From Nitrososphaerota archaeon (GTDB lineage Archaea > Thermoproteota > Nitrososphaeria > Nitrososphaerales > Nitrosopumilaceae), in contig JAJPGU010000029.1 of assembly GCA_021325615.1 (NCBI GenBank), positions 1-64,000 of the forward strand: a stretch of 64,000 bases of DNA, written 5' to 3'. A program made the translations under genes and the position numbers. Shown in pieces: positions 59,387 through 63,811 of the stretch. The first letter of the stretch is position 1, and every line of letters starts with the position of its first letter. The notes under the pieces are model-generated. The model saw nothing but the letters and a program-made list of their open reading frames with translations, ran no database searches and had not been told where the DNA came from.

Positions 59387-62300
59387 TTAGTCGAATTTTT
59401 CGTATGGATCAAGGGGTTTTTTGGTTGTCTCGTTGTTCCTAAGCCATTCCAAGGTCTTTGCAAACGAGTCTGCCAGCTCTGTGGTTATCAGAACAGGTAC
59501 GCCAAGTTCCACTGCCTTTCGTCTTATCTGGTATTCATCATAAAGCATTCCCACATATTTTTCCAGCGTCGAGGTGCTTGGCACGTTGATTATAAAGTCT
59601 ATCTTGCGCTCATACAAAAGGTCGGCTATGTTGGGCTTTCTTTCAGGCTCACTTATCTTGTAAACTACCTCAACGTCCCCTATCCTTTTGTCAGAGAGGA
59701 ATTCCGCGGTATGCTCCGTCGCCAATATTTTGTATCCCAGACTTTTTAGAAGAAGCGCAGTCTGCAAGAGTTTCTCCTTGTTTTCCGACCCTCCTGCAGT
59801 GATTAGAACCGAGCCCTCCCTTGGTAGCGCGTAACCAGACGACATCAGCCCCTTTGCGAGGGCGTCGTAAAACGATTCCCCAAAACAGGCTGCCTCTCCG
59901 GTGGACTGCATCTCCACCCCCAGGATGATATCGGCCCCTTCAAGTTGCATGAATGAAAACTGCGGAACCTTCACACCATACGAATGGATCTTCTGCCAAC
60001 GATCCTTCGGTACGGCAGGCAGAGTTTTTCCAAGCACGGCACGGGCCGCAAGCGATATCAGATTCATCCTTACGAATTTCGAAACAAATGGCATGGATCT
60101 CGAGGCCCTTATGTTGAGCTCAATCACATAGACTTGGTTGGCATTTATCAGGAACTGTAGGTTGAACGGTCCTTTAATCTTGAAGGCTGTGGCAATCTTG
60201 TTCGTGTATTCAAGTATTGTTTCTATTATTTTGTTTGAAAGACTCCAAGGTGGTATGCACATCATCGAGTCCCCCGAATGAATTCCTGCCCCCTCTATGT
60301 GTTCTATGACGGCGCCAATTACGACATTTTTTCCATCGGAAACACCGTCTACCTCGGCTTCAAGTGAGTTTAGCATGAATTTTGTAATCACAACAGGATA
60401 GTCCGGGGATACGTTTGTTGCCTCCTCGAGGTATTTCTTCAGTTGCTCTTCCGACCAGACCACCTTCATTGCAGCCCCGCTCAGGACGTATGAAGGCCTT
60501 ACTAGGACAGGATAGCCTACCTTTAACGCAAATTTTTTTGCGTCGACAAGTTTTGAGAATGCCTGCCAAGGCGGCTGCCTTATGTGAAGGTCGTCTAGCA
60601 CCTTACTAAAATTCGACCTGTTTTCTGCCCTATCAATGTCTTCAAACGAAGTTCCTACAATCTTTATCCCGTTCTTTGCAAGCTTTGGCGTAAGGTTGTT
60701 CGCGGTCTGCCCCCCCACCGCAGTCACTACCCCCGAAAGTTTTTCAAATTCGGCAATGTCCAGAACCCTCTCAAGGGTAAGCTCCTCAAAATAGAGCCTG
60801 TCACAAATGTCATAATCCGTCGAGACCGTTTCTGGATTACAGTTTATCACAGAAACTTCCTTCACGCCGTTTTCCTTGAGACCCCAAACCATGTTTACCG
60901 TTCCCCAGTCAAACTCGACACTACTACCTATTCGGTATGGTCCCGCCCCAAGGACTGCCACCTTCTCATTGGTCGAGTTTACCTCAAAATCATTTGATTT
61001 TCCACCGTATGTCATGTACAGATAGTTCGTCTGGGCAGGCCATTCTGCTGCAAGGGTATCGATCCTCTTTACAACCGGTACTATTCCAAGGTCTTTCCTC
61101 CTCTTCCGTATTTCCATGTCATCCTTGCCCACAATCCTTCCGATTTGCTTATCAGAAAACCCAATTTCCTTTGCCGTACCAAGCAATTTTACATCCAATT
61201 CTCCGTCCTTGAGCTCGCTTTCTTTTTTGACAATGTTTTCAATCTTCTCTATAAACCACGGATCGATTGCGGATAACTTGTAAATCCTTTCCACCGAGAT
61301 GCCTTGCTTTAACGCGGCCGCCACATGATACAGAATTTTGTCATCAGGTTTTTGCAGTTTGTTCTCTATTTCCTCCACGTCGTAGACTTCCTCTTGCTTC
61401 CGGTTTGCCACCAGGCCGTCGTTTCCAATCTCAAGCATTCGTATGGCCTTTTGAAGCGATTCCTCAAAGCACCTACCAACCGCCATAACCTCCCCCACAG
61501 ATTTCATGGTAGGCCCCAAGTTGCGGTTGGCCAGCTCGAATTTGCTAAAATCCCACCTCGGATGTTTACAAACTATATAGTCAAGCGAAGGCTCAAAGCA
61601 GGCAGTAGTTGTCTTTGTAATCCTGTTAACTAGTTCAGGCAGTTTGTAACCCATGCCGATTTTTGCCGCCATATAGGCAATTGGGTATCCCGTAGCTTTC
61701 GAGGCAAGTGCCGACGAGCGAGATAATCTCGGGTTCATCTCTATTGCCACATACTTGTCAGAATCCATGTCCATCGCAAATTGGATGTTGCATTCGCCCA
61801 CTATGCCAACATGTCTTGCTGCCCTAAGGGCGGCAGACCTGAGCATCTGATACTCATGATTGTCAAGAGTCTGGGAGGGAGCTACTACTATGTTGTCTCC
61901 AGTGTGAACCCTCATCGAGAGGACATTTTCCATGTTGCAGATTATGATGTTGTTGCCGTCATAGTCTGCCATTACCTCATATTCTATCTGCTTCCAGTGT
62001 CCCACATATTCTTCAATGAGCACTTGCCCTACAAGACTGGCATTTAGGCCACGCGTCACTATCTCGTGTAGTTCGATCTCATTGTGTGCAACGCCCCCGC
62101 CCTTACCCCCAAGAGTGTACGCCACCCGTATTATCACAGGATAACCAAGATCCGTTGCAACTTCCTTGGCCTGTTCAAAGTTGTAGACCGTCTTGCTCTT
62201 GAGTACAGGTACATTGCATTCTATCATGGAATCCTTGAAAAGCTGCCTGTCCTCCGTTGCCTTGATGCCCTCCACTTGAGTGCCAAGGACGCGTATTCCA

Positions 62301-62652
62301 TATTTTTTCAACGCCTCCATCTCGTCAAGCTTTACCCCACAGTTCAGGGCCGTCTGACCTCCGAATCCCAACATCAAACCGTCAGGCCTTTCAGACTCCA
62401 ATATTGAAGACACGTATTGAGGATTCACAGGAATTGAATACACCTTGTCGGCAAATCTCGTATCCGTTTGTATGGTGGCAATGTTAGGATTGACAAGAAT
62501 GCTTTTAATTCCTTCTTCCTTTATGGCCTTGAGGCATTGAGAACCGGAGTAGTCGAACTGGCGGTCACTATGTGACTCTCGCCTGCTTCTCCGATTTTTA
62601 TTGCCCCACTGCCAAGGACTAGAATCTTCTTTAGCGCCTCATCTTTTGGCAT
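59387..62652 (-). CDS. carB: Carbamoyl-phosphate synthase large subunit, interrupted by a 20-nt insertion
   Basis: Start ATG 62652 (RBS-like GGGGAGG just upstream), 14-nt overlap with carA. Exon 1, 62652-62578, encodes 25 residues ending GSGAIKIGEAGE. A 20-nt insertion (62577-62558) then shifts the frame; exon 2, 62557-59387, resumes at FDYSGSQCLKAIKEEG. Without removal of the 20 nt, translation stops about 18 codons later, and the first in-frame ATG downstream (62443) would lose the first ATP-grasp strand. Joined, the protein has 1081 residues, normal for CarB: first ATP-grasp half with RVAYTLGGKGGGVAHN, second half with RPSYVLSGAAMKVV, and a C-terminal MGS-like domain. The insertion folds like an archaeal bulge-helix-bulge splice site. 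Essential for pyrimidine and arginine synthesis. Confidence 0.9.
62558..62577 (-). other. Putative 20-nt mRNA intron in carB with bulge-helix-bulge fold
   Basis: Minus-strand order across the site: GGCG, AGA, GTCAC, ATA, GTGAC, CGCC, AGT. GGCG pairs with CGCC (4-bp central helix), GTCAC pairs with GTGAC (inner helix, ATA loop), leaving 3-nt bulges AGA on the 5' strand and AGT on the 3' strand, which is the core of an archaeal splice motif. Cutting each bulge after its second base removes exactly 20 nt and joins GAG to TTC, restoring CarB. The outer helix next to the core is weak, but CGGAG (upstream) and CTCCG (downstream) can pair a few nucleotides out. This is a relaxed-type BHB; processing is inference. 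Confidence 0.75.
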
Positions 62653-63811
62653 TTTCCTCCCCTATTAGCTTCTTGAGTTCTTCAAAAACAAACATGCAAT
62701 CAAAAGGTCCCGGAGACGCTTCCGGATGGAATTGTACAGCGATTATCTTTTTTTCCTTGTGCCTTATTCCTTCTACAGTGTTGTCGTCGGTATTTGAGAA
62801 CCAAAGCTTGAAATCAGTTTTTTTGAGAGATTCAGGATCAATGCAATAACCGTGGTTTTGGCTTGTGACGTAAACCTGTTTGTTCTCAAGGTCGATGCAG
62901 GATTTGTTTTGGCCGCGGTGTCCATACTTTAATTTGTAGGTACTTGCCCCTCCCGCTAGTCCCAGTATTTGGGCTCCCAGGCATATTCCAAGGGTTGGTA
63001 TGTTCTTGTCAATAAGTTGCCTCGCAGTATCCATGGTTTTTTTGCATTTTATGGGATCACCCGGGCCGTTGGACAGGACGACGCCCTTTGGATTGTAACT
63101 GAGGATTTTTTCTATCGAATAGTTCCACGGCACTCGCACCACCTTATACCCCAGCCTTCGCACGTTTCTCAAAATTGCGTTCTTTACGCCCGTGTCCACA
63201 ACAACGACAGACTCTCCTTCAGTGCCGTAGAGCTGAGGCTCCTTTACGGAAACTACGTCCATGAATTCCTCATCATTGTATTTTTTTGCAACAGCGAGTT
63301 CCCTCATTATCTCCTGCTCGTCTATTTCATTTTCGGATACTACAAGAGATGCCATCATTACACCTTTGGTACGTAATTTAGTGGTAAGTGCCCTGGTGTC
63401 AATGCCAGATATTCCCGGGACCTTTTCCTCATAGAGCCACTCGTCAAGGGTCATGGCAAGGTTCCAATGGCTCGCAGTCTGCGAGAGTTCGTGCACCACA
63501 AGCCCCCTAGCCTGGATCCGTTCAGATTCAAAGTGCGTCTTCAGGCCATCCGAGTCCTTCGATGCAGGATCAGGCACCCCGTAATTTCCCACAAGAGGGT
63601 ATGTAAGGGTCAATATCTGCCCGCTATAGGAAGGATCAGTGAGTGCCTCCGTATATCCCACCATTCCAGTATTGAAAACTGCCTCTCCGAAAACTTTGGT
63701 CGAGTACCCAAAACCCATCCCTTCAAAAACCGTGCCATCTTCCAAAACAAGCTTACCAAACTTTCCTACATGTTTGGCTTTCTTTGTTGGAATTTCTGTG
63801 ACCCTCACCAA
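62639..63811 (-). CDS. carA: Carbamoyl-phosphate synthase small subunit
   Basis: 390 residues from TTG 63811 (GTG 63808 follows). N-terminal CPSase domain (GKLVLEDGTVFEGMGFGYS, GMVGYTEALTDPSYSGQIL) and C-terminal class I glutaminase: nucleophile Cys in GICLGAQILGLAGG, where the His common in GICLGHQ is Ala, and the HPE pair in VQFHPEASPGPFD. Channels glutamine ammonia to CarB. Overlaps carB by 14 nt. TATA-like box about 26 bp upstream. Confidence 0.96.
   Translation of the reverse strand: MVRVTEIPTKKAKHVGKFGKLVLEDGTVFEGMGFGYSTKVFGEAVFNTGMVGYTEALTDPSYSGQILTLTYPLVGNYGVPDPASKDSDGLKTHFESERIQARGLVVHELSQTASHWNLAMTLDEWLYEEKVPGISGIDTRALTTKLRTKGVMMASLVVSENEIDEQEIMRELAVAKKYNDEEFMDVVSVKEPQLYGTEGESVVVVDTGVKNAILRNVRRLGYKVVRVPWNYSIEKILSYNPKGVVLSNGPGDPIKCKKTMDTARQLIDKNIPTLGICLGAQILGLAGGASTYKLKYGHRGQNKSCIDLENKQVYVTSQNHGYCIDPESLKKTDFKLWFSNTDDNTVEGIRHKEKKIIAVQFHPEASPGPFDCMFVFEELKKLIGEENAKR

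Follow-up and report, generated by a model that had tools for sequence, protein, structure and literature searches.

The window (the whole stretch of 64,000 nucleotides that was analysed) encodes both subunits of carbamoyl-phosphate synthase on its minus strand. The two genes overlap by 14 nt at the carB start, making carB the downstream member of an overlapping gene pair, and carB is interrupted 25 codons past its start by a 20-nt insertion that lies within a predicted bulge-helix-bulge (BHB) structure. The features of the locus are as follows.

62639–63811, minus strand: carA, small subunit, sharing 14 nt with the carB start
59387–62652, minus strand: carB, carbamoyl-phosphate synthase large subunit, exons 62652–62578 (25 codons) and 62557–59387
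62558–62577, minus strand: putative 20-nt intron AGTCACATAGTGACCGCCAG, found at one and the same position across 178 parsed loci, in 84 sequence variants
62585–62594, minus strand: exon 1 arm of the outer helix, TCGGAGAAGC, pairing with 62544–62554; silent sites frozen in intron carriers
62580–62583, minus strand: 5′ strand of the central helix, GGCG, in exon 1; double compensatory change to GGTG/CACC in locus L148
62577–62579, minus strand: 5′ bulge AGA, with the predicted cut after 62578, between its second and third nucleotides
62564–62576, minus strand: inner stem-loop GTCAC-ATA-GTGAC, with covarying pairs
62560–62563, minus strand: 3′ strand of the central helix, CGCC, in the intron, placed from parsed introns and alignment pairing
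62557–62559, minus strand: 3′ splice-site AGT, with the predicted cut after 62558 (AG↓T), placed from parsed introns
62544–62554, minus strand: exon 2 arm of the outer helix, GACTACTCCGG; silent sites frozen in intron carriers

Read along the minus strand from the ATG at 62652, carB runs through GGAGAAGCAGGCGAG to 62578, then AGTCACATAGTGACCGCCAG from 62577 to 62558, and continues as TTCGACTACTCCGG from 62557. The insert falls between the codon that ends the conserved GEAGE segment (62578) and the codon that begins FDYSG (62557). Reading straight through the 20 nt loses the frame, while joining 62578 to 62557 yields a CarB of 25 + 1056 = 1081 residues, for which the predicted junction-spanning peptide in the window species is IGEAGEFDYSGSQCLK. 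An alignment with E. coli CarB (1bxr; residues 1–401 to 1–403) covers the whole of the N-terminal 401 residues of the joined protein, and that with human CPS1 (5dot) has no gap at the junction. Against the TIGR01369 profile, the match of exon 2 alone starts at position 25 (1387 bits) and that of the joined N-terminal part at position 1. An earlier sequence-only reading had claimed a 20-nt insertion at this point and an in-frame join giving a 1081-residue CarB; the insertion, the GEAGE and FDYSG coordinates and the product all proved right, the first to the base. A second intact carB, which that reading had named as a finding that would overturn the claim, was looked for across the genome (1.83 Mb, 32 contigs, 95.9% complete). 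The single CPSase_L_D3 match lies at the carB locus, and hence the genome contains no spare carB.

The element reads GGCG-AGA-GTCAC-ATA-GTGAC-CGCC-AGT, and RNA folding of the site was more stable than 200 of 200 shuffled sequences (z −4.5 for an 83-nt folding window and −3.9 for a 145-nt one). The RNAalifold consensus independently gives an outer helix formed by the exons, TCGGAG(A)AGC / G(A)CTACTCCGG. At the 3′ splice site, the consensus has approximately 5 unpaired nt opposite 1 nt, which identifies the structure as a relaxed BHB. A strict canonical BHB at both sites is therefore rejected, strictness being confined to the 5′ side. Thus, of the fold with two 3-nt bulges proposed by the sequence-only reading, the element itself and the strict 5′ bulge stand, but the 3′ side is looser than was supposed. 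Minimum-energy folds contain the bulge and both full arms in 43 of the 84 distinct introns, a further 14 lack only the outermost 3′ pair, and 20 prefer a rearranged pairing. The comparative evidence for a BHB described below outweighs this single-sequence folding. No match to the element was found at E ≤ 1 among 4227 Rfam families, on which basis a group I or group II intron or other Rfam RNA was rejected. Moreover, 20 nt is too short for a ribozyme core.

Parsing of 178 loci gave the 84 distinct intron sequences on which all structure counts are based. They range from 20 to 40 nt in length, and the exon junction and the length of the 5′ bulge are invariant while stem sequences, loops and overall lengths vary. 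The 5′ bulge is exactly 3 nt (A, then R, then A or T) between the exon strand and the inner stem in 84 of 84, the exon strand is GGCG in all but one (GGTG), and in every case the intron ends 2 nt past the partner strand of the central helix, immediately upstream of TTY GAY. All four pairs of the central helix are standard in 68 of the 84, and the other 16 have one G-A mismatch, at the outermost pair. The inner stem comprises 3–10 bp, and its pairs covary: UA (54) or CG (24) at pair 2; CG (68), UA (13) or AU (1) at pair 3; AU (51), GC (25), UA (3) or CG (1) at pair 4; and GC (32), CG (17), UA (10) or AU (2) at pair 5. In tool-made alignments 95–96% of cells pair, compared with 21–51% when the partner strand is slid by 1–3 columns. 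Compensatory stem changes, which the sequence-only reading had proposed to seek in relatives, therefore occur in the inner stem and also in the central helix of L148, where both strands are altered (GGUG/CACC). Some introns of family f8 (L192, L206) are enlarged to 34–40 nt only in the apical loop or inner stem, with the splice-site region unchanged.

When 60 relatives were searched with the joined protein, the match in most genomes of the same genus either broke off at the junction residue or continued through a single TAA there. The sequence-only reading had also suggested comparing close relatives for presence or absence of the insert: within the genus, each of the 28 loci whose site was parsed (L002–L029) has 20, 21 or 22 extra nucleotides at this codon boundary, and in an order-level relative (L030) the exons are joined directly. 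Closed genomes with the intron include those of Ca. Nitrosotalea devanaterra (LN890280.1, L051), of the same genus, and Ca. Nitrososphaera evergladensis (the single-contig f8 genome G122), whose intron is 22 nt long (L151). Records of Nitrosotenuis and Nitrosarchaeum have the insert, as do some of Nitrosopumilus and some of Marine Group I; those of Nitrosopelagicus, and most of the Nitrosopumilus records retrieved, lack it cleanly. Strong matches to a covariance model (R1) were obtained in family codes f1, f3, f5, f8, f10, f11 and f12, and sequences from each were read and confirmed, so that within the order carriers come from the Nitrosopumilaceae and no fewer than six further families. Weak matches (∼1e-3 to 1e-10) were intron-free carB genes where inspected (for example, L197). 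Among 398 phylum-wide genomes there were no strong matches outside the order, and 46 of 46 strong matches lay inside it. One genome of a different order (G424, family f20; L195/L235) has an intron-bearing carB, and the position of its CarB within the f10 clade suggests horizontal transfer or a misbinned contig.

In a tree of CarB (95 rows, exon 2 only) the presence and absence of the intron requires at least 10 changes, 7 of them imposed by branches with good support. Read most simply, the intron would have arisen early in the order and then been lost exactly several times, although the change count alone fits gain or loss. An exact and recent natural loss is seen in Marine Group I strain G13 (L083:2300–2450): the intron is still present in its close kin L079, L090 and L102, and silent changes have already arisen in the 3′ exon arm of G13. 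A contig binned as ‘Candidatus Anammoxibacter’ (L111) has a Nitrosopumilus-type carB and the bin is probably contaminated. Genome G284 (L164) has two carB model matches, one with the same start region as that of G389 (L163), suggesting MAG redundancy or contamination. A record titled Nitrososphaeraceae SCK_bin.6 (L071) has a Nitrosarchaeum-like carB start region, and its name may be wrong.

The exon arms of the structure also encode protein, and their silent sites differ sharply between loci with and without the intron. The codons GGA (80/84 with intron versus 7/47 without), GGC (83/84 versus 3/47), ATC (77/84 versus 12/47), TCC (71/84 versus 5/47), TAC (80/84 versus 21/47) and GAC (77/84 versus 15/47) are near-fixed in carriers and free in non-carriers, which indicates that selection on the exon for RNA structure is confined to intron-bearing loci. 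Adjacent control codons showed no difference between carriers and non-carriers (AAA, 54/84 versus 30/47; CAA, 68/84 versus 34/47). Intron lengths fall into all three residue classes modulo 3 (32, 26 and 26 of the 84), and simple frameshifting is rejected on this basis. An in-frame stop is present in 32 of 32 frame-preserving introns and in 35 of the 52 others, a difference for which the Fisher p of 1e-4 is indicative only, since phylogeny is ignored and kin sequences are treated as independent; the same caveat applies to the Fisher tests on the silent sites. In every case an unspliced reading meets a stop within 28 codons.

The genome contains two tRNA_int_endo paralogs (EndA) and one RtcB. 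One EndA paralog matches the catalytic EndA chain of Aeropyrum pernix with 156 bits and has a His where chain 3p1z has His and the variant 3ajv has Ala, both of which we take to be Aeropyrum pernix chains. The second paralog aligns best to archaeal EndA chains and is without that His. The two would fit a heteromer of a catalytic and a structural subunit, its assembly into a tetramer being surmised from their sequences. The catalytic EndA gene (G000:C8:118903–119142) is on the same contig as carB, ∼56 kb away, and the second paralog is on contig C10. Relaxed BHB motifs, and cbf5 pre-mRNA, have been associated with the heteromeric class of EndA, and the canonical EndA cut falls between the second and third bulge residues (PMC2738675).

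We conclude that the 20 nt are very probably a genuine BHB intron of the EndA/RtcB type in the carB mRNA, and we infer that this RNA is cut, ligated and then translated. The proposal made from the window alone, that a protein gene contains a minimal BHB intron excised by the tRNA-splicing machinery, has thus gained support from the order-wide presence of the insert, the compensatory changes, the frame-independent lengths, the constraint on exon-arm silent sites, the single carB and the presence of EndA and RtcB in the genome. In the mechanism that we propose, the exon segments TCGGAGAAGC, GACTACTCCGG and GGCG would fold with the intron into the outer, central and inner helices. A heteromeric EndA of catalytic and non-catalytic paralogs would cut at GGCGAG↓A and AG↓TTC, between the second and third nucleotides of both bulges, and RtcB would ligate the exons in frame to give the 1081-residue CarB. 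Transcripts left unspliced would be frameshifted or stopped within 28 codons and would give no CarB. The intron would have been gained early in the order, with several exact losses thereafter.

A spliced intron might in addition serve as a regulatory switch, whereby splicing efficiency sets CarB output and EndA and RtcB control the supply of carbamoyl-phosphate, arginine and pyrimidines. The long retention of the intron across the order, the stops in all frame-preserving introns and the location 25 codons past the start, downstream of carA, are in line with such a role. However, no ligand-binding architecture is visible in the 20-nt element and it has no Rfam match, the independent exact losses suggest dispensability and a low loss rate can account for the retention, and hence we regard a switch as unlikely, if worth considering. 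The same low likelihood attaches to a more specific speculation about ammonia-oxidising archaea, namely that CarB might be made only from transcripts that the tRNA machinery has spliced ahead of the ribosomes, which would tie nucleotide and arginine precursors to tRNA-splicing capacity, with selection keeping stops in frame-preserving introns so that unspliced RNA never yields protein.

Two explanations that leave the RNA uncut are far less probable than either of these. Translational bypassing of the kind known from phage T4 gene 60, in which the ribosome hops over a hairpin, would account for a conserved hairpin in a coding gap of variable length, and stops within the gap would be harmless to the hop. 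Bypassing needs matched take-off and landing codons. Here the take-off codon is GAA or GAG, and the resume site is preceded by any of nine different codons (CAA, 36; TAA, 16; AAA, 13; CAG, 7; TAT, 4; CAT, 4; AAG, 2; TAG, 1; AAT, 1), none of them matching, which disfavours bypassing. The gap also spans 20–40 nt, and the 3-nt bulge, the 4-bp central helix and their exon partners are conserved in EndA geometry that a hop does not require. We therefore consider bypassing very improbable. No more credible is a reading in which the locus makes a conserved short leader peptide and, separately, a CarB whose translation begins within exon 2, and the hairpin has a regulatory function. It is true that exon 1, in its overlapping gene pair, forms a short open frame and that the unspliced frame soon reaches a stop. 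However, exon 1 encodes the N-terminal GSGAIKIGEAGE, which is continuous with FDYSG in the solved CarB and CPS1 chains and unchanged as protein in intron-free relatives, and this part of the conserved CarB N-terminus argues against a leader peptide. The first listed start in exon 2, a GTG at 62443, is moreover 38 codons in and would forfeit the start of the first domain. Lastly, although frameshifts are common in drafts such as this one of 32 contigs, a sequencing or assembly error (the other finding named as capable of overturning the intron) or a decaying pseudogene has a negligible probability and is ruled out: the same insert, with substitutions that preserve its structure, recurs in isolates of independent origin, in closed genomes and in many MAGs, and CarB is otherwise intact and single-copy.

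A BHB intron in carB would place this type of mRNA intron in an archaeal class different from those with the cbf5 intron, where most members of an order containing abundant ammonia oxidisers share it, where it is as small as 20 nt and where it has been retained over several families. It would imply that the annotation of carB in such genomes needs correction and that EndA has essential messenger substrates. The many exact losses, together with the 84 variants, amount to a rich natural experiment on the limits that a structured exon sets to its coding sequence. No description of a carB intron, of mRNA introns in Thaumarchaeota or of an intron or splicing in Nitrosotalea or Nitrososphaera was found in the open literature. 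Since subscription journals lay outside this search, novelty is provisional: as far as searchable papers go, carB would be the second archaeal protein gene with a BHB mRNA intron, besides cbf5.

The closest known system is the intron in the cbf5 pre-mRNA of Crenarchaeota (Watanabe 2002; Yoshinari 2006; Yokobori 2009, PMC2738675), for which relaxed BHB forms have been reported and which as of 2009 was the only such gene with confirmed splicing (PMC2738675). Like cbf5, carB would have a BHB-type intron within a protein-coding gene, with a relaxed motif, a predicted cut between the second and third bulge residues, a link to heteromeric EndA, an apparently common origin and loss in some lineages. 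The two differ in gene and class (carB, Nitrososphaeria) and in size, the four cbf5 introns sized in PMC2738675 being 33, 36 and 39 bp, whereas that of carB is 20 nt here and 20–40 nt overall; and cbf5 splicing is backed by cDNA while that of carB is read from genomic sequence. A 2020 study of EndA cites, apart from its own case in the 5′ UTR of HVO_1309, only cbf5 as reported with an additional archaeal BHB mRNA intron (PMC7714728). HVO_1309 and carB would share an EndA-processed BHB in an mRNA, presumptively so for carB, but that of carB interrupts coding sequence. The putative 12-bp introns of rudivirus SIRV1 variants, as cited in PMC2738675, preserve the frame and their splicing was not demonstrated; they resemble the carB inserts in being very small and in archaeal protein genes, but the carB inserts break the frame or carry stops. 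With the BHB introns of archaeal tRNA and rRNA, the carB intron has in common the structural logic and the candidate enzymes, EndA and RtcB. Unlike those, its host RNA is a messenger, and its exon arms must also encode protein, a dual role that is seen as frozen silent sites.
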